Part shown: piece by piece, positions 17,877 through 27,707 of the stretch | Layout: the number at the start of each line of letters is the position of its first letter | Position numbering within the stretch: the stretch's first letter is position 1 | Assembly (NCBI GenBank): GCA_035709005.1 | Contig: DASTFB010000104.1 | Location: 1 to 64,000 of the forward strand | Source: Candidatus Methylomirabilota bacterium | Lineage (GTDB): Bacteria > Methylomirabilota > Methylomirabilia > Rokubacteriales > CSP1-6 | Direction: 5' to 3' | Length of the DNA: 64,000 nt | The notes under the pieces: model-generated | Database searches by the model: none | Told to the model about the DNA's origin: nothing | What the model saw: only the letters and a program-made list of their open reading frames with translations | Made by a program: the position numbers and the translations under genes

Positions 17877-18017
17877 GGCTTGACTCCGGCGCTAAGGAAC
17901 AGGTACACAGGAATCGTCCCTGCGCTGTTGGTGATGCCGGTAACGTTTCGACCTCATTTTGCCAAACGGGCGCTGTGATCGAGGGCCGGTGCGCAAGCCC
18001 TGAGGTCAAGGGAAGCC
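17877..18017 (-). ncRNA. ssrS: Candidate 6S RNA downstream of zapA
   Basis: The 232-bp spacer between zapA and top6B has no convincing protein gene. On the minus strand its core can form a closing helix: GGC and TTGAC near 18017-18005 pair with GTCAA and GCC near 17885-17877, with a bulge between. A GCGC/GCGC helix lies further in, and a large, weakly paired centre separates the two sides, which recalls 6S RNA. A gene placed directly downstream of zapA on the same strand is the classical ssrS location in many bacteria. At about 140 nt the core is short for 6S (about 180), so this is a candidate only. The 6-bp hairpin at 18040-18056 may belong to its 5' region. Confidence 0.3.
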
Positions 18018-18089
18018 TGAAGGCCTTCTAACGGGGCCCACCTGGTCTAGCCAGGTCCGAAACACCTCGGCACACGGCAGAGGCGGGGA

Positions 18090-18386
18090 TTACGTTCCTG
18101 CGCGCCCGGTCGCCCGGTCCAGGAGGCTCTGGATCGCGTCCAGTCGGGCCCCCGCGTCGGCCGTCTCGCGGGAGCGCTCCTCCCGAGCCCGGAACAGCTC
18201 ATCCGTGATCTCCAGGGCCGCCAGCAGCAGCGACTTGATGTGGTCCGGCACACCCGCGCGCCGGACCGCCTCCACCCGCTGCTCGAGGTGGCGGGCCAGC
18301 GTGCGCACGTATTCGGTATTCGCCTCCGTGCGCACCACCAGGGTCTGACCGAGGAGCGTGAGCTCGACCCGCTTGACCTCGCTCAT
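18090..18386 (-). CDS. zapA: Cell division protein ZapA
   Basis: A small cytoplasmic protein that bundles FtsZ filaments at the division ring. The 98-residue product shows the ZapA pattern: an N-terminal beta strand (VELTLLGQTLVVRT), the helix EYVRTLARHLEQRVEAVRRAG, ILLALEITDELF-type residues (LLLAALEITDELFRAREE), and a C-terminal coiled coil. A good Shine-Dalgarno sequence (ggagg) lies 5 nt before the ATG. It follows the small coiled-coil gene by 16 bp and closes the infC-to-zapA run of same-strand genes. Confidence 0.93.
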   Translation of the reverse strand: MSEVKRVELTLLGQTLVVRTEANTEYVRTLARHLEQRVEAVRRAGVPDHIKSLLLAALEITDELFRAREERSRETADAGARLDAIQSLLDRATGRAGT

Positions 18387-18402: not shown

Positions 18403-18594
18403 TCACAGGTCCAGCTTGTTGATGTCGGACAGGATGGCGTCGATCTGGGCCACGGTCTGCTTGCGCTCGGCCGCCACCCGGGCCAACTCGCGGCGCAGCC
18501 CCTCGTTCTCCTCCCGCAAGCGGTCCAGGGTCGCGACCGCCCGCCGCACGGCGTCCTCCAGCTGACCCAGGCGGTCGAGGAGCGTGTCGGCCAT
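18403..18594 (-). CDS. Small coiled-coil protein, ZapB-like
   Basis: A 63-residue protein, almost entirely one predicted coiled coil (LDRLGQLEDAVRRAVATLDRLREENEGLRRELARV). Its ATG overlaps the TGA of pheT by one base (TGATG), indicating translational coupling. The position between pheT and zapA, the length and the heptad pattern fit the ZapB-like proteins often found before zapA, which bridge ZapA and the chromosome terminus. Sequence alone cannot separate ZapB from any short coiled coil, so the role rests mainly on context. Confidence 0.75.
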   Translation of the reverse strand: MADTLLDRLGQLEDAVRRAVATLDRLREENEGLRRELARVAAERKQTVAQIDAILSDINKLDL

Positions 18595-21023
18595 CAGGCG
18601 CCCCGCCACGTGATCTTGAACTGCTCGGCCACCCGCTGGGCCACCGCCTCCTGGATCCGATTGGCCTCCTCGTCGGTGAGAGTACGGTCCTCCGCCTGCA
18701 GCGTGAGGCGCCAGGCCAGGTTGCGCCGGCCTTCCTCGAAGGTGAACACGTCGAAGAGCGTCAGTTGCCGGAGCAGCGGACCGGCCTCGGCGCGGATCAC
18801 GGCCTCGATCTCGGCGGCGGTGACGGTGCGCAGGGCGCCGACCAGGAAGGCCACGTCGCGCTGCACCGCCGGATAGCGCGGCAGGGCCTGGTAGCGGATC
18901 TCCGGCGGCGTGAGCCGCAGGATCTCGTCCAGCGGCAGCAGCGCGGCGAACACCGGGATGCCGATGTCGAACAGGGCTCGCACATCGGCCGCGACCTCGC
19001 CGAACTCGGCGACGGTCACGCCGTCGGCCACGAGCACGCCCCGGCGGTCCGGCTCGAACCCCTTGACCCCGGCGGCCAGATGCGCCCGCGAGGCCGGCGC
19101 GGGCACCCGCAGCGCCTCCAGCACGTGCTCGGCCAGCCCCTTGGCGTCGTAGATGTCGACCGGCTCGACACGTCCCTCGCCCGCCGGCCGGACCCACCAT
19201 GCCGGCGGCTCCCGGGCGCCGGCCAGGGCGATGGCCAGCCAGCGGGACTCGCGGGGCAGTCCGGGGGCCGGCTCGAAGATCTTGCCGATCTCGAAGACGC
19301 GCACATTGGGCTGCTGTCGGCGCAGGTTGGTCGCCACCACACCCAGGACCCCCTCCAGCGGGTTGTAGCGCAGGAGCGAGGCGTCCCGGCTGAGCGGGTT
19401 GAGCAGCGCGAGCGGGCGCGGCGCCGCCGGCGTGCGCAAGACCTCGTCGTAAGCGGGGTCGCTGAAAGTATAGGTCACCGCCTCGTGGAGGCCCGCCCCC
19501 ACCAGCGCCCGCCGCACCGTTTCGGCCTGGCGCAGGCTCATCGGGAGCTGGACCGGCCGCAAGGGCACGGGGACCAGCGCCGAGGGGATCTTGTCGTAGC
19601 CCCACACGCGGATGACTTCCTCCACGAGGTCGTCCTCGATGCTGAGGTCGCGGCGGAAGCTGGGCACCTCGACCTCGAGGGCGTCGGCCTGCGCGCGCAC
19701 GCCCAGCCCCAGCCCCGTGAAGATGCGCGCGGCCTCGGCCTGCGGGGGCGCCACGCCGAGCACCCGGCCGAGCCGCGCCATGCGCAGGGTGATCCGCGGC
19801 CGGGCCTGGGGCCGCGGATACGCGTCGACCATGCCGCGGGCCACCGTGCCGCCGGCCACCTCGGCGATGAGCTGAGCGGCCCGATCGCTGGCGTCGACGA
19901 GGGCCTCGATATCGGCCCCGCGCTCGAAGCGGTAGGCGGCGTCGGTGAGGAGGCCCAGCGCTCGGGACGTCCGTCTGATCGAGGCCGCCGCGAAGCAGGC
20001 GCTCTCCAGCAGCACGCGGGTCGTGGCCGGCGTGACTTCGGTCTCGGCGCCACCCATCACCCCGGCGATGCCGATGGCACGCTCGGGATCGGCGATCACC
20101 AGCATGGCGCCGTTCAGCGTGCGGGTCTGGCCGTCGAGCGTGGTGAAGCGCTCGCCGTCACGGGCGCGGCGGACGACGATCGTCCCCTCCGTCACGGTGG
20201 CGTGATCGAACGCGTGAAGCGGGTGGCCGAGCTCCCACATGACGTAGTTGGTGACGTCGACGACATTGCTGATGGGCCGCAGCCCCGCCGCCCGGAGGCG
20301 GGCGGCCAGCCACGCCGGAGACGGCCCTACCCGGACCCCGCTGATCACGCGGGCCGTGAACCGCGGACAGAGGTCGGGGGCCTCGATGCGGACCCGCGCC
20401 AGGCTCTCCACCGCGTCGTCGGACTCCTTGACGACGACCGCGGGCGCCCGGAACGGCGCCCCGGTCAGCGCGGCCAGCTCGCGGGCGATGCCCACCACCG
20501 ACAGGCAGTCGGGACGGTTGGGCGTGACCTCGACTTCCAGCACCCGGTCGTCCAGTCCGAGGTGGGCGACCAGGTCGGCGCCGAGCGGGGCGTCGGCGCC
20601 GACCAGCAGGACGCCGGCCTCGTGCTCCGCGCCCAGACCCAGCTCGCGTTCCGAGCACAGCATGCCCTGGGACTCGACGCCGCGGATCTTCGTGGCGGTG
20701 ATGCGACGTCCCCCGGGCAGCGTGGCGCCCGGCGCCGCGAAGGCGGCCCGGACACCCGGCCCCGCGTTGGGCGCCCCGCACACCACGCTGAAGCGCTCGT
20801 GCCCGGTGCTGACGCGGCAGAGGACCAGCCGGTGCCCCTGGCTCTCGCCCAGCTCGCGCTCGATGGCCTCGATCTCGGCCACGACGACGCCGGCCAGATC
20901 GGGAGGGGCCAGCGGCGTGATCCCGGCGATCTCCACGCCGGCGTTCACGAGGCGGTCGGCCGCCTGCTCGGCCGTGAGGTCGAGGTCGACGAATTCGCGG
21001 ACCCAGCGGTACGGAATCTTCAT
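18594..21023 (-). CDS. pheT: Phenylalanine--tRNA ligase beta subunit
   Basis: The large subunit of the heterotetrameric enzyme that charges tRNA-Phe. The ATG at 21023 begins [20 protein letters not shown], the normal N-terminus. The same frame stays open upstream through pheS only because of high GC. Domains in order: B1 and the tRNA-binding EMAP-like B2 ([10 protein letters not shown], residues about 45-150, with [15 protein letters not shown]), the B3/B4 editing domain ([31 protein letters not shown]), B5 ([16 protein letters not shown]), the catalytic-like core ([25 protein letters not shown]), and the C-terminal anticodon-binding FDX-ACB domain ([15 protein letters not shown]). The 809 aa length is usual. 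It overlaps pheS by 4 bp (ATGA). Confidence 0.97.
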
Positions 21024-22042
21024 GCGAACTGCCGCAGCATCCGCACGTCGTCCTCGAAGAAGAGCCGGATGTCGTCCACTCCGTACTTCAGCATGGCGAT
21101 GCGCTCGATGCCCATGCCGAAGGCCCAACCCGTGACCTCCTCCGGATCGTAGCCCACGTTGCGCAGCACCTGCGGGTGAACCATGCCCGAGCCGAGGATC
21201 TCCAGCCAGCCCGATTGCTTGCACACCCGGCAGCCGCTGCCCCCGCAGCGGAAGCACAGGACGTCGACCTCGGCCGAGGGCTCCGTGAACGGGAAGAACG
21301 ACGGCCGGAAGCGGATCTTCGAGCGCGGCCCGAACATCTCGCGGGCGAAGAGCTCCAGCGTGCCCTTGAGGTCGGCCATGGACACGTTCCGATCGACGGC
21401 CAGCCCTTCGACCTGATGGAACATCGGGGAGTGGGTGATGTCGGCGTCGCGCCGGTACACGCGTCCCGGGCAGATGATGCGGACGGGTGGCCGCTGGGTC
21501 TGCATGATGCGGATCTGCACCGGGGAGGTGTGGGTCCGCAGCAGGGTGTCCTCGGACAAGTAGAAGGTGTCCTGCATGTCCCGGGCCGGATGGTCCCGGG
21601 GGATGTTGAGGGCCTCGAAGTTGTGGTAGTCGTCTTCGACCTCGGGGCCCTCGGCGACCGCGAAACCGAGGCCGAGAAAGATGGCGACGCTCTCGTCCTG
21701 GACCCTGGTCAGGGGATGGCGCGCGCCCAGGGGCGGCCGGCGGCCGGGCAGCGTGAGGTCCAGACGCTGGCGCGCGCGCTCCTGGCGGCGCTCGGCCTCC
21801 CGCGTCTCGCCCAGCCGCAGCTCGAGCAGCGCTTCCAGCTCGCGCTTGGCCTCGTTGGCGGCGGCGCCCACCAGCGGGCGCTCGCGAGCCGGCAGCGTGC
21901 CCAGCGAGCGCAACAGCAGCGTGAGCCGGCCCTGCCGGCCCAGGTAGCGCACGCGCAGCTGCTCGAGGTCCGCCGAGGCGCTGGCCCGCGCGATGGCCGC
22001 GCGCGCTTCCTCGGCGAGGGGATCGACGCGAGGGTGCCCCAT
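21020..22042 (-). CDS. pheS: Phenylalanine--tRNA ligase alpha subunit
   Basis: The catalytic subunit, class II fold, 340 aa. An N-terminal coiled coil (residues 1-90) binds tRNA. Motif 1 is around [12 protein letters not shown], motif 2 includes [17 protein letters not shown], and motif 3 is [17 protein letters not shown], with the active-site loop [19 protein letters not shown]. Its ATG directly follows the rplT stop (no gap), and it overlaps pheT by 4 bp. This is the conserved rpmI-rplT-pheS-pheT order. Confidence 0.97.
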
Positions 22043-22396
22043 TCAGGCACGCGTCTTCACTGTGTCGGCCAGCTTGGCGAAGGCGGCAGGATCCTTGACC
22101 GCCAGCTCGGCCAGCACCTTGCGGTCGAGGCCGATGCCGGCCTTCTTGAGGCCGGCCATGAAGCGTGAGTACGACACCCCGAGCGTCCGGCAGGCGGCGT
22201 TGATCCGCACGATCCACAGTCCTCGCGCCGCGCGCTTCTTCTGCCGGCGGTCCCGGTAGGCGAAGGCGCCCGCCCGGAGCACCGTCTCGGCCGCCGTCCG
22301 GTACAGCCGACGGCGGCCCCCCACATACCCCTTGGCCTGCTTGAGGACCTTCTTGCGCCGCTGGCGCGTCTTGCTTCCACCCTTTGCCCGTGGCAT
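22043..22396 (-). CDS. rplT: 50S ribosomal protein L20
   Basis: A 117-residue ribosomal protein that binds 23S rRNA early in large-subunit assembly. The highly basic N-terminal half ([29 protein letters not shown]) and the conserved [28 protein letters not shown] block identify it. In many bacteria L20 represses its own operon, but I see no clear leader structure to prove that here. It lies 51 bp after rpmI. Confidence 0.98.
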
Positions 22397-22447
22397 CCCT
22401 GCTCCTTTGCGTCGGGCCTGGCCGGCCCGACGATCGGCGACGGTCGG

Positions 22448-22645
22448 CTACAGATACGGCACGAGCACCCGCATCCGGCGCTCGTCGGCCGGGCTGATCG
22501 GCCGTACCTTCCGCAGCCGGCGCCGCCGGTGCGGAGACTTGGCCTCCAGCAAGTGGCTCTTCCACCCCTTGTGGCGCATGAGCTTGCCGGTGCCGGACTT
22601 CTTCAGGCGCTTGGCCGCGCCCCGCTTCGTCTTCATCTTGGGCAT
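22448..22645 (-). CDS. rpmI: 50S ribosomal protein L35
   Basis: A 65-residue basic ribosomal protein with the family start MPKMKTKRGAAKRLKKSGTG and the central HLLEAKSPHRRRRLRKVRPIS block. It sits 19 bp downstream of infC and before rplT in the standard infC-rpmI-rplT operon. Confidence 0.98.
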   Translation of the reverse strand: MPKMKTKRGAAKRLKKSGTGKLMRHKGWKSHLLEAKSPHRRRRLRKVRPISPADERRMRVLVPYL

Positions 22646-22664
22646 GCGCGCTCCCTCACGTTCC

Positions 22665-23186
22665 TCAGTGCTGAGCCCGGGGGGACAGCATGATGTGCAG
22701 CATCCGCCCCTCCATCCGCGGATTGTTCTCCACGGAGGCGATGTCCTGCACGGCCTCCACCATCTTCTGCAGCATCTTCCAGCCCAGCTCGGTGTGAGCC
22801 ATCTCCCGGCCCTTGAAGCGGACCGTCACCTTCGCCTTGTGCCCCTCCTCCAGGAAGCGCCGGACGTGGCGCACCTTGAACTCAAAGTCGTGCTTCTCCG
22901 TCTTGGGCCCCATCTTCACTTCTTTGATCTGAATCGTCGTCTGCTTCTTGCGCGCTTCCTTCAGGCGACGGGACTGCGTGTACTTGTATTTTCCGAAGTC
23001 CATGATGCGGCAGACCGGCGGCTGCGCATCCGGCGCCACCTCCACGAGGTCCAGCTCCCGCTGGCGGGCGACCTCCAGCGCCTGTTGAATCGGCATGATG
23101 CCCAGCTGCTCGCCTTCGGCGCTGACCACCCGAACTTCGCGGACGCGGATGCCCTCGTTGATGCGGATCTCTTTGGTTTGGCTGAT
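22665..23186 (-). CDS. infC: Translation initiation factor IF-3, probable ATC start
   Basis: IF-3 prevents subunit joining and checks the initiator tRNA and start codon on the 30S subunit. The N-domain opens with ISQTKEIRINEGIRVREVRVV and contains ALEVARQRELDLVEVAPDAQPPVCRIMDFGKYKY; the C-domain holds KEVKMGPKTEKHDFEFKVRHVRRFL. No ATG, GTG or TTG exists in frame near the expected N-terminus. An ATC at 23186-23184 lies 7 nt after a good AGGAG and gives 173 aa, the normal size. IF-3 genes of many bacteria use AUU, AUC or AUA starts for self-regulation, so this choice is plausible. It lies 94 bp downstream of thrS. Confidence 0.95.
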   Translation of the reverse strand: MSQTKEIRINEGIRVREVRVVSAEGEQLGIMPIQQALEVARQRELDLVEVAPDAQPPVCRIMDFGKYKYTQSRRLKEARKKQTTIQIKEVKMGPKTEKHDFEFKVRHVRRFLEEGHKAKVTVRFKGREMAHTELGWKMLQKMVEAVQDIASVENNPRMEGRMLHIMLSPRAQH

Positions 23187-23198
23187 GGCGTCGCTCCT
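23184..23198 (-). promoter_or_regulatory. infC ribosome binding site and ATC start codon
   Basis: AGGAG at 23198-23194, a 7-nt spacer, then ATC at 23186-23184. It decides the start because no standard start codon is available in frame. IF-3 discriminates against such codons, which gives negative feedback in E. coli. Feedback here is inferred by analogy. Confidence 0.75.
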
Positions 23199-23280
23199 GA
23201 TTACGAGGTCGTGAAGACCGCGCGCGCGAGGCGCGCGTGGCCGCGCCGCCGCCGGGCGGCGCTGGACAGGGGACGCTCGC

Positions 23281-25074
23281 TCACGAGCGACCCACGGTGA
23301 GGTCGGGATCCCGGGCGCTGATCTCGCGGGCGAGGTCGGCGAGGAGGCGATCCACGGGAACGTCCTTGATCTCTTCGCCGGAGCGGCGACGCAGGCTGGC
23401 GGTGCCGCTCGTCCGCTCGCGCTCGCCCACGATGACCATGTAGGGCACCTTGCGCAGCTGGGCATCGCGGATGCGATAGCCGAGCTTCTCGTTGCGGTCG
23501 TCCAGCTCGGCCCGGACCCGGGCCGCCTGGAGCCGCCCGTGCACGGTCCGGGCGTAGTCCAGGTGCTTCTCGCTGATGGGCAGCACGCGGGCCTGCACGG
23601 GGGCCAGCCAGGTGGGGAACGCCCCCGCGTAGTGCTCGGTGAGGATGCCGACAAAGCGCTCGAACGATCCCAGAATCGCCCGGTGGATCGCCACCGGGCG
23701 CTTGGCCTGACCGTCGGCGTCGATGTAGGTCAGCTCGAAGCGCTCGGGCAGCATGGTGAGATCCACCTGGATCGTGGCGATCGTCCACTTCCGGCCGAGC
23801 ACGTCCTCGACGTCCACGTCGATCTTGGGACCGTAGAAGGCCCCGTCGCCGGGGTTGAGATCGTAGGCCAGCCCGTTGGCCTTGAGGGCCTCGTGCAGCG
23901 CCCGCTCCGCCGTCTCCCACTGCTCCTCGGTGCCCAGCGAGTCGGCGGGCCGGGTGGCCAGCTTGAAGGACGGCTCCAGCGAGAACGTCTTGTGCCAGGT
24001 CCGCATCAGCCCCAGCAGCTGCGTGACCTCGTCCTGGAGCTGATCGGGCCGGCAGTAGATGTGGGCGTCGTCCTGGGTGAACTGGCGCACCCGAAAGAGG
24101 CCGGTCAGCGTGCCGGACCGCTCGTTGCGATGCAGCCGCCCCATGTCGGCGAAGCGCAGGGGCAGGTCGCGGTAGGAGCGCAGGGCGTGGCGATAGACGA
24201 TGGTCGACTCCGGGCAATTCATGGGCTTGAGCGCGAACATCTGCTCTTCCGCCTCGAGCTTGAACATGTTGTCGGCGTAATGCTCCCAGTGCCCGGACTG
24301 CTCCCACAGCTTCTTGTTGACGAGGATCGGCGTGGAGACCTCCTGATAGCCGAGCGCGTCCAGATGCTCCCGCACGAACCGCTCCAGCTCCCGCACGATC
24401 GTCCAGCCGTGCGGCAGCCAGAACGGCGAGCCCGGGGACACCTCGTTGAAGATGAACAGGTCCAGCTCCCGCCCCAGCTTGCGGTGGTCGCGCTTCTTGG
24501 CTTCCTCCAGCCGCCAGAAGTGCCTGTCCAGCTCCTCCTGGGTGAGCCAGGCGGTTCCGTAGATCCGCTGCAGCATGGGGTTCCGCTCGCTGCCGCGCCA
24601 GTAGGCACCCGAGGACGACAGCAGCTTGAAGAACTTCACCTGGCCCGTCGAGGCCACATGGGGGCCGCGGCAGAGATCGATGAACTCACCCTGCTGATAG
24701 AGCGAGACCCGGGGGGCGCCGAGGCCCTCGAGGATCTCCACCTTGAACGGCTCGTCCCGGCCGCCGAAGAAGCGGACGGCTTCCGGCCGGGCCATCTCGC
24801 GGCGCTCGAACGGATAGTCGGCCGCGGTGATCGCCCGCATCTCCGCCTCGATGCGCTCGAGGTCGGCGGTGGTGAACGGCTCGGCCTTGAGGAAATCGTA
24901 ATAGAAGCCGTCCTCGATGGCCGGGCCGATCGCCAGCTTCACTCCGGGGAACAGGCGCTTCACGGCCTGGGCCATGACGTGCGCGGTGGAGTGGCGGAGC
25001 GTAGAAAGCGGCGACGGGTCGCAGTCGAACTCGCCGGTCAGCGTGAGGTGGCGGTCTTGTTCAGCCTCGGCCAT
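23281..25074 (-). CDS. thrS: Threonine--tRNA ligase, form lacking the N-terminal TGS domain
   Basis: It charges tRNA-Thr. The product is 597 aa, while standard bacterial enzymes have about 640. The editing-domain motif HSTAHVMAQAVKRLFP appears by residue 30, so the leading TGS (ubiquitin-like) domain is absent. The rest is complete: editing domain with the SAD motif (YWRGSERNPMLQRIYG following), class II catalytic core with zinc ligands in MNCPE (Cys), DAHIYC-type region (QDDAHIYCRPDQL), motif 3 region (HRAILGSFERF), and the anticodon-binding domain (LPISEKHLDYARTV). A tRNA-Val gene lies 22 bp upstream on the same strand. Confidence 0.95.
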   Translation of the reverse strand: MAEAEQDRHLTLTGEFDCDPSPLSTLRHSTAHVMAQAVKRLFPGVKLAIGPAIEDGFYYDFLKAEPFTTADLERIEAEMRAITAADYPFERREMARPEAVRFFGGRDEPFKVEILEGLGAPRVSLYQQGEFIDLCRGPHVASTGQVKFFKLLSSSGAYWRGSERNPMLQRIYGTAWLTQEELDRHFWRLEEAKKRDHRKLGRELDLFIFNEVSPGSPFWLPHGWTIVRELERFVREHLDALGYQEVSTPILVNKKLWEQSGHWEHYADNMFKLEAEEQMFALKPMNCPESTIVYRHALRSYRDLPLRFADMGRLHRNERSGTLTGLFRVRQFTQDDAHIYCRPDQLQDEVTQLLGLMRTWHKTFSLEPSFKLATRPADSLGTEEQWETAERALHEALKANGLAYDLNPGDGAFYGPKIDVDVEDVLGRKWTIATIQVDLTMLPERFELTYIDADGQAKRPVAIHRAILGSFERFVGILTEHYAGAFPTWLAPVQARVLPISEKHLDYARTVHGRLQAARVRAELDDRNEKLGYRIRDAQLRKVPYMVIVGERERTSGTASLRRRSGEEIKDVPVDRLLADLAREISARDPDLTVGRS

Positions 25075-26356: not shown

Positions 26357-27373
26357 CTAGATGTCACGCCCCACCGCGCGCGCCACCCGACCCACGCGCT
26401 CCATCAGCTCGGCGAAGCGCTCCGGTTTGAGGGACTGCGGGCCGTCGGACAGGGCCTCGGCCGGGCGAGGATGCACCTCGATCAGAAGGCCGTCGGCGCC
26501 CGCCGCCACCCCGGCGCGGGCCATCGCTTCCACATATTCCCAGTGGCCGGTGCCGTGGCTGGGATCCACCACCACCGGCAGATGGGTCAGCTTCTTGATC
26601 ACCGGGATGGCGTTGAGGTCCAGGGTGAAGCGGGTCGTCGTCTCGAACGTGCGGATGCCACGCTCGCACAGGATGACGTCGGGATTCCCGCCGGCCAGGA
26701 TGTACTCGGCCGACAGGAGCCACTCCTGAATGGAGGTCGCCATGCCCCGCTTGAGCATCACAGGCTTGCGCACCTCGGCGACACGCTTGAGCAGCGAGAA
26801 GTTCTGGACGTTCCGGGCCCCGATCTGGATCACGTCGGCGTACTCGGCGACCAGGCCGACTTTGTCGGGCTCCATCACCTCGGTCACCACCGGCAAGCCG
26901 GTCTCCCGCTTGGCCTCGGCCAGCAGCTTGAGCCCCTGCTCTTCCAGGCCCTGGAACGCGTAGGGCGAGGTCCGGGGCTTGAACGCCCCGCCCCGGAGCA
27001 GAGCCGCCCCCGCCCGCTTGACCTTGCCGGCCACGTCCAGCACCTGGTCCCGCGATTCCACCGAGCAGGGACCGGCCATCACCACCACGCGGGGACCACC
27101 GATCAGCACGCCGTCCACGCGGATGACCGTCGGCTCGGCCTTGCACTCCCGGCTGGCGAGCTTGAAGGGGTGAAGGATGCGCTGGACGGTCTCCACGCAT
27201 TCCAGATTTTGCAGCGAGAGCAGATCGTCCTTGCCCCGCTCGTCGCCGACCGCGCCCACCACGGTGCGCAGCTCCCCCCGGATCGTGTGTGGGACATAGC
27301 CCAGCTCCCGCACCCGGCGGACGACGTCGGCGATCTCGCTCTCGGACGCTCCGGCCTTCAGCACGATGATCAT
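26357..27373 (-). CDS. aroF: 3-deoxy-7-phosphoheptulonate (DAHP) synthase, type I-beta with N-terminal regulatory domain
   Basis: It condenses phosphoenolpyruvate and erythrose 4-phosphate, the first step of aromatic amino acid synthesis. The ATG at 27373 has GGAGG 6 nt upstream and gives 338 aa. Residues 1-70 ([21 protein letters not shown]) form the ferredoxin-like regulatory domain of Thermotoga-type enzymes. The barrel follows with [74 protein letters not shown] and [12 protein letters not shown], which hold the PEP- and metal-binding residues. A 300-nt leader with an aromatic leader peptide and a terminator precedes it, so transcription attenuation is likely. A dispersed hairpin repeat stands just before its ribosome binding site. 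Confidence 0.97.
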
Positions 27374-27389
27374 CGGTGGCCTCCATTGA

Positions 27390-27507: not shown

Positions 27508-27541
27508 AGAAAACAAAAGGCCGCGGGGGGCCCGCGGCCTC
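27508..27541 (-). terminator. Rho-independent terminator of the aroF attenuator
   Basis: On the minus strand AGGCCGCGGG (27540-27531), a 3-nt loop and CCCGCGGCCT (27527-27518) form a 10-bp stem followed by TTTTGTTTT. It lies between the leader peptide and aroF. An upstream strand at 27562-27556 (CCCGCGG) can pair with the first terminator arm and would then prevent termination. Confidence 0.85.
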
Positions 27542-27593
27542 GAGGTGGCTCGGCGCCGCGGGCGTCCGGTCCGCCCGCGGCTCCCTGATCAGC

Positions 27594-27665
27594 TCATGTC
27601 AGGGCGCTCGGGCAGACCCCGGCGAAGAAAAAGTAGCCCGCGAAGCGACGCCAGGAGGTGCCCAT
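27594..27665 (-). CDS. Putative aromatic leader peptide of the aroF attenuator
   Basis: A 23-codon frame encodes MGTSWRRFAGYFFFAGVC and then PSALT-stop. One Trp, one Tyr and four Phe codons, three of them consecutive, match the leader peptides that sense charged aromatic tRNAs before phe, tyr or aro genes. It starts at an ATG about 6 nt after the predicted transcription start, so translation would be leaderless or nearly so; no clear Shine-Dalgarno sequence is seen. The stop codon lies inside a small hairpin (27583-27604), and 14 nt further a 9-bp stem (27556-27580) precedes the terminator. Confidence 0.7.
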   Translation of the reverse strand: MGTSWRRFAGYFFFAGVCPSALT

Positions 27666-27677
27666 AACGTGGCCGGT

Positions 27678-27707
27678 AGCTTAGGCCGAGCCGAGCGGGC
27701 TCGTCAA
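27678..27707 (-). promoter_or_regulatory. Predicted sigma-70 promoter of the aroF leader
   Basis: TTGACG at 27707-27702 and TAAGCT at 27683-27678 are 18 bp apart (or CTAAGC at 17 bp). It lies in the short gap after the VTT-protein stop and just before the leader peptide, so transcription would start near 27671. Confidence 0.6.

Follow-up and report, generated by a model that had tools for sequence, protein, structure and literature searches.

A candidate five-arm relay attenuator with Phe and Tyr control codons precedes a DAHP synthase gene of Rokubacteria

In the window (the whole stretch of 64,000 nt that was analysed), aroF is very probably governed by a ribosome-mediated transcription attenuator, a five-arm relay that, judged from the comparison and folding of sequences, would couple the expression of DAHP synthase to charged tRNA-Phe and tRNA-Tyr. 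Rokubacteria are soil bacteria, and for these uncultured organisms the attenuator offers a testable control mechanism for the entry enzyme of aromatic synthesis. The features are given below in the order of transcription.

27702–27707, minus strand: -35 element TTGACG of the leader promoter, read from the sequence and also present in relatives
27678–27683, minus strand: -10 element TAAGCT (TAGAGT-like in relatives), from the sequence and the relatives
27594–27665, minus strand: leader ORF of 23 codons with its ATG at 27665, encoding MGTSWRRFAGYFFFAGVCPSALT and a stop; translation, conserved in relatives
27653–27651, minus strand: Trp codon
27644–27642, minus strand: additional Phe codon
27624–27635, minus strand: control codons TAC TTT TTC TTC (Tyr-Phe-Phe-Phe), from the sequence
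27610–27618, minus strand: arm 1, GGUCUGCCC, within the leader ORF right after the control codons; pairs with arm 2 (covariation; three phases among relatives)
27599–27604, minus strand: 5' side (CCCUGA) of the apical stem of the 1:2 hairpin, the loop of which holds the leader stop codon (fold)
27583–27588, minus strand: 3' side (UCAGGG) of the same apical stem (fold)
27573–27581, minus strand: arm 2 in the register paired with arm 3, GCCGCGGGC (compensatory changes)
27568–27576, minus strand: arm 2 in the register paired with arm 1, GGGCGGACC
27555–27563, minus strand: arm 3, GCCCGCGGC, partner of arm 2 (anti-antiterminator) or arm 4 (antiterminator)
27531–27539, minus strand: arm 4, GGCCGCGGG, 5' arm of the terminator
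27519–27527, minus strand: arm 5, CCCGCGGCC, 3' arm of the terminator
27510–27518, minus strand: U-tract TTTTGTTTT of the intrinsic terminator
26357–27373, minus strand: aroF, the regulated gene, a DAHP synthase of the type with a ferredoxin-like domain (PF00793, PF18152, NF006421); start codon ATG at 27373, GGAGG at 27384–27380

Leader, promoter and terminator of aroF

An earlier note, made from the letters of the window, had proposed a promoter TTGACG and TAAGCT with a spacer of 18 nt, a 23-codon frame containing one Trp, one Tyr and four Phe codons, a first stem and a terminator; each of these was found where it had been placed, the first stem at 27581–27573 with 27563–27555 and the terminator at 27539–27531 with 27527–27519, then the U-tract at 27518–27510. 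A promoter search of the window at a strict threshold returned no promoter, and the pair is weak taken alone; TTGAC(G/A)-17/18-TAGAGT-like sites occur at the equivalent position in the relatives. Transcription would start at about 27671, leaving a 5' UTR of about 6 nt. The -10 box ends 9–13 nt before a start codon that has no Shine-Dalgarno sequence in 25 of the 35 leaders of the window's family; this comparison supports leaderless translation, as the note had suspected, and the leader of aroF is apparently translated in this way. A sub-clade (L023, L025–L030 and L035) has a longer 5' UTR, mostly a Shine-Dalgarno sequence, and a GTG or ATG start. A leaderless leader is unusual but not new, because in the ilvBNC leader of Corynebacterium glutamicum the transcript start and the start codon are one nucleotide apart (PMC11857589).

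The codons nearest to arm 1, one for Tyr and three in a row for Phe, stand 9–18 nt upstream of it. Trp, with a single codon 36 nt upstream of arm 1, probably plays no main part in the control by this leader. The first proposal, control of aroF by the charging of tRNA-Phe, tRNA-Tyr and tRNA-Trp, is supported by comparison for ribosome progress over aromatic codons, with this correction on Trp. The 35 family leaders carry 2–8 aromatic codons each (at least four in 34 of them). One leader (L024, genome G022) has intact arms and several Cys codons, with one Tyr and one Phe codon only, and it may be losing or changing its specificity.

In the window's family the first of two GC-rich hairpins has no U-tract, and the second has one and is the terminator, so that an intrinsic terminator is present between the leader ORF and aroF. 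GGUCUGCCC and GGGCGGACC pair over their full length of nine bases with one G-U, and GGGCGGACC shares bases with the 5' arm of the first hairpin. The stem energies in the window are -33.3 (1:2), -23.8 (2:3), -27.4 (3:4) and -22.3 kcal/mol (terminator). The leader region folds with z = -3.4 (none of 200 shuffles was as good), and two terminator-like sites were observed against 0.5 expected. The antiterminator 3:4 and the terminator 4:5 are mutually exclusive, arm 4 being common to both. Pairing of arm 3 with the 5' arm of the terminator, predicted by the earlier note, is possible, at -27.4 for the antiterminator versus -22.3 kcal/mol for the terminator. The classical layout that the note saw in this pairing was not recovered, because an extra arm in the leader ORF (27618–27610) makes the structure a five-arm relay and not the simple four-arm form. 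In the full RNA at equilibrium, 1:2 and the terminator can coexist (-67.1 kcal/mol); therefore, switching must happen during transcription.

Elsewhere in the window, a 6S RNA was found at 17914–18093 on the plus strand (Rfam RF00013, 85 bits), and thrS-, infC-, rplT-, pheS- and pheT-like ORFs are consecutive on the minus strand (18594–25074). The pheS-like ORF directly follows the rplT-like ORF, leaving no space for a Phe leader before pheS.

Conservation of the arms and the proposed switch

Protein matches were obtained in all 60 relatives searched. The leader is present in 35 of 35 family members read, always before aroF or before the first of two tandem aroF genes, with the pattern M...FFYFA(G/E)V(C/R)P(G/P/S)AL(T/S) and fewer aromatics in one, L024. 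Covariance model R1 matched 54 of 57 family genomes (E<1e-12); one of the misses, G034, is a genome 64% complete whose sole protein match is distant. In family f5, the loci that were read (L041, L042) showed no leader in the pattern search, and R1 gave no strong match.

The U-tract stands 137 nt from the aroF start, and a VTT-domain gene lies upstream of the leader on the strand that leader and aroF share; the hairpin might thus be an ordinary terminator of that gene, accompanied by a chance ORF, with the promoter of aroF further downstream. This is almost certainly not the case, because the whole family keeps the promoter, the ORF, its codon bias and the arms between the terminator and the upstream gene, and matching codons are found before other operons.

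Aligning the leaders of related genomes, as the earlier note had advised, showed that the peptide and the alternative stems are kept in close relatives, that the aromatic codons are conserved and that 1:2, 2:3 and 4:5 carry compensatory changes. Among the 35 leaders, 1:2 was paired in 98.4% of cells (10 double-change cells), 2:3 in 99% (10 double changes) and 4:5 in 99.7% (4 double changes); the antiterminator 3:4 was paired in 99.7% and is retained, yet showed no covariation above chance. One sub-clade changed stem 2:3 from G-C to A-U, by which 3:4 stays as G-U and 2:5 breaks. The latter pairing, which is unused and served as the control, was broken in 10 sequences. Extended to 71 loci, 1:2 was paired in 96.8% with 24 double changes, compared with 4.2 in shuffles (0/1000). 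In this table L094, L107, L100 and L235 were unparsed and L010 was misparsed, and these five were read by eye.

Across the 71 loci, the bases of arm 1 are read in three phases (VCP, GLP/RLP/CLP and ACP), and a UGC/CGC exchange replaces Cys by Arg and preserves the pair. Because three reading phases are used, it is the RNA and not the peptide that is conserved at arm 1. The same observations bear on a nascent-peptide arrest, in which the end (G/E)VCPxAL, strongly conserved in Rokubacteria, would be sensed in the ribosome tunnel as in TnaC: the Cys/Arg exchange that keeps the pairing, and the fact that sister families and many Desulfobacterota read arm 1 as RLP, GLP or CLP, make this extremely unlikely. 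Action of the leader RNA or peptide in trans, with attenuation as a secondary effect, has a precedent in peTrpL of Sinorhizobium (PMC7298713). It is most improbable here, since the peptide is not conserved outside the control codons and arm 1.

The geometry of the leader was compared with the attenuator reading. In nearly every family member, 9 nt separate the last aromatic codon from the GUC of arm 1 (15 nt in one leader with few aromatics), and arm 2 begins 8–16 nt after the stop codon in the family. Given this spacing, a stalled ribosome would halt before arm 1, and a ribosome at the stop codon would cover arm 1 and leave arm 2 uncovered. In favour of a classical four-arm attenuator of the trp type, in which a stalled ribosome would itself hide the 5' strand of the first stem and so free arm 3 for the antiterminator, are the 1:2/2:3/3:4 form of arms 2 to 5 taken by themselves and the conservation of 3:4. 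We consider this arrangement very unlikely. The first stem starts about 43 nt after the final Phe codon and, in the family, 8–16 nt past the stop, out of reach of a stalled ribosome, which therefore cannot mask it, and the covarying 1:2 pairing would be left unexplained. Nor do the control codons lie inside arm 1, as the trp type requires for the masking of this arm by the stalled ribosome: in almost all of the 71 loci, the last control (aromatic) codon comes 7–10 nt before arm 1.

We folded 33 leaders of the presumed relay with the ribosome footprint removed, using 13 nt from the A-site codon. This is the footprint of E. coli ribosomes in general. With the ribosome stalled at the penultimate aromatic codon, 3:4 at the end of arm 4 had a mean probability of 0.97; when the stall was on the last Phe codon itself, arm 1 was partly covered and the mean antiterminator value went down to 0.75. 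A ribosome placed at the stop codon gave 2:3 a value of 1.00 before arm 4 emerged, and 3:4 was still 0.40 at the end of arm 4. When arm 1 was mutated under the stall, 2:3 was 0.94 at the end of arm 3, with arm 4 yet to appear. The counted 1:2 pairs failed to form in the folding of L017 and L030. Taken together, the covariation, the three reading phases of arm 1 and the masked folding support a switching role of arm 1. Untranslated leaders still formed 1:2 (mean 0.82 at the end of arm 4), and no arm A able to hide arm 1 was found in the folding, which therefore predicts that an untranslated leader would read through and not terminate.

The switch would then operate as follows. RNA polymerase would start about 6 nt upstream of the ATG of the leader, and the almost leaderless RNA would be loaded with a ribosome. 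If it stalled in the Tyr-Phe-Phe-Phe run, its front edge would stop at arm 1 and leave this arm free; arm 1 would take arm 2, the leftover arm 3 would form the antiterminator with arm 4, the terminator 4:5 would come too late, and aroF would be transcribed. If aromatic amino acids were plentiful, the ribosome would reach the stop codon and cover arm 1, leaving arm 2 free to take arm 3, so that arm 4 would be available to arm 5 and transcription would stop at the U-tract.

The same arms before other operons and in sister families

The second-best model match in the window's own genome (G000:C53:13214-13333, L089) has unchanged arms and the leader MTLRVLSRGLILLALPGLPGASAT, which is followed by genes for pyruvate phosphate dikinase (ppdK), a DapA-like protein and acetolactate synthase (ilvB). 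Of nine relatives inspected, eight have such a Leu/Ile leader before ppdK, and the ninth has it before an ORF of equal size. The loci of this sister attenuator before ppdK-dapA-like-ilvB are L089, L090–L096, L099 and L107. In several of these leaders the -10 box ends about 7–9 nt from the start codon, and these are apparently leaderless too.

We sought the arm set elsewhere with model R2 and with a pattern that was run against 84,980 species, and found it in Desulfobacterota and other delta-type bacteria. The scan returned 80 loci, most by chance; 15 had a hairpin with a U-tract, all from Rokubacteria or delta-type bacteria. In the latter group, including Desulfobacterota, an AroG-type DAHPS is preceded by an FYFWFYYFY leader, a DAHPS with chorismate mutase-prephenate dehydratase by FFFNYYYFYF, ADTH synthase with dehydroquinate synthase II by YYFYFWYYWF, trpD by WGWWW and leuA by LLTLLPGLALLRLL, whose control codons are for Leu. 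Class-level searches added 12 new loci, all 12 with aromatic leaders; the first part of the downstream ORF served to recognise DAHPS or ADTH synthase there. This match of codons and operon across unrelated enzymes is, among sequence-based arguments, the strongest functional one; read in this way, the arm set is a common chassis whose control codons are exchanged to fit each operon. Such leaders could help to give operons an amino acid specificity in unculturable genomes.

Other loci were recorded alongside. Two leaders (L097 in G054, L100 in G053) are Val-rich, MDLL..SVVVAVVR(A/T)CPRAGGV, with tandem U-tailed hairpins of like type, and the ORF after them has a sigma-54 interaction domain. The Phe-rich leader MFSMTDIFIFFFGFFRGVCPLSS of L114, with matching arms and tandem terminators, precedes a gene for a periplasmic binding protein, which suggests an attenuated amino acid transporter. 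The weak R1 matches L102–L105 and L108 look like chance terminators and were rejected as leaders.

In sister families, the loci L036, L037 and L043 have one hairpin only, the homologue of 2:3, and here it bears the U-tract. Consequently, 1:2 would be the antiterminator directly in these leaders, which fixes the polarity. Two successive U-tailed hairpins occur in L038, L039, L040 and L044. In the desulfobacterotal loci L218–L221, which lie before ADTH synthase, the U-tract belongs to the second hairpin and is missing from the first, so the relay form appears to exist outside Rokubacteria too. We infer that one design runs in steps through the single, tandem and relay forms; found side by side, these provide a case in which the origin of relay attenuators can be studied. 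More tentatively, and with a chance that we put just short of even, all these leaders may stem from one chassis old enough for both Methylomirabilota and Desulfobacterota, copied between operons by exchange of control codons only and rebuilt stepwise from one terminator through tandem terminators to the five-arm relay, with read-through as the untranslated default and no his-type arm A.

Comparison with known attenuators

Rfam 15 gave no gathering-level match to the window leader and 12 relatives (Trp, Phe, His, Leu and Thr leaders, T-box), and at a relaxed threshold the window leader matched unrelated families only. The leaders would therefore add to Rfam an absent attenuator family, in which the RNA arms are constant and the codons vary with the operon. 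The literature searched, open-access papers other than the earlier survey of proteobacterial attenuators (Vitreschak 2004, cited in PMC1262725), contained no description of such leaders in these phyla. What appears to be undescribed is the chassis, together with its spread and its three forms; the kind of attenuator, attenuation of DAHP synthase and the relay layout are known.

With the trp, pheA and pheST leaders of E. coli the window leader shares a short ORF with control codons, an antiterminator and an intrinsic terminator. In the four-arm layout of trp, arm 1 is masked by the stalled ribosome, whereas the window leader requires the stalled ribosome to leave arm 1 free. The AroR-aroF system of C. 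glutamicum is an attenuated DAHP synthase operon that responds to Phe limitation (PMC4046766; PMC11802643, citing Neshat 2014). It is alike in having an aromatic leader peptide (Phe-Tyr-Phe) before the operon and in ribosome stalling under Phe limitation that leads to read-through; it belongs to another phylum. The ilvBNC leader of C. glutamicum likewise has an anti-antiterminator, an antiterminator and a terminator, and a leader start near the transcript start (PMC11857589), but its three hairpins overlap, compared with five separate arms here, and its context is unrelated. The his attenuator of enterobacteria has stems AB, CD and EF with the alternatives BC and DE (PMC10989985). Arm A was not found in the leaders described here, their control codons are aromatic, Leu/Ile or Trp and not His, and there is no Rfam match; in the order of the pairings, however, 1:2, 2:3, 3:4 and 4:5 of the window correspond to B:C, C:D, D:E and E:F of his (PMC10989985).
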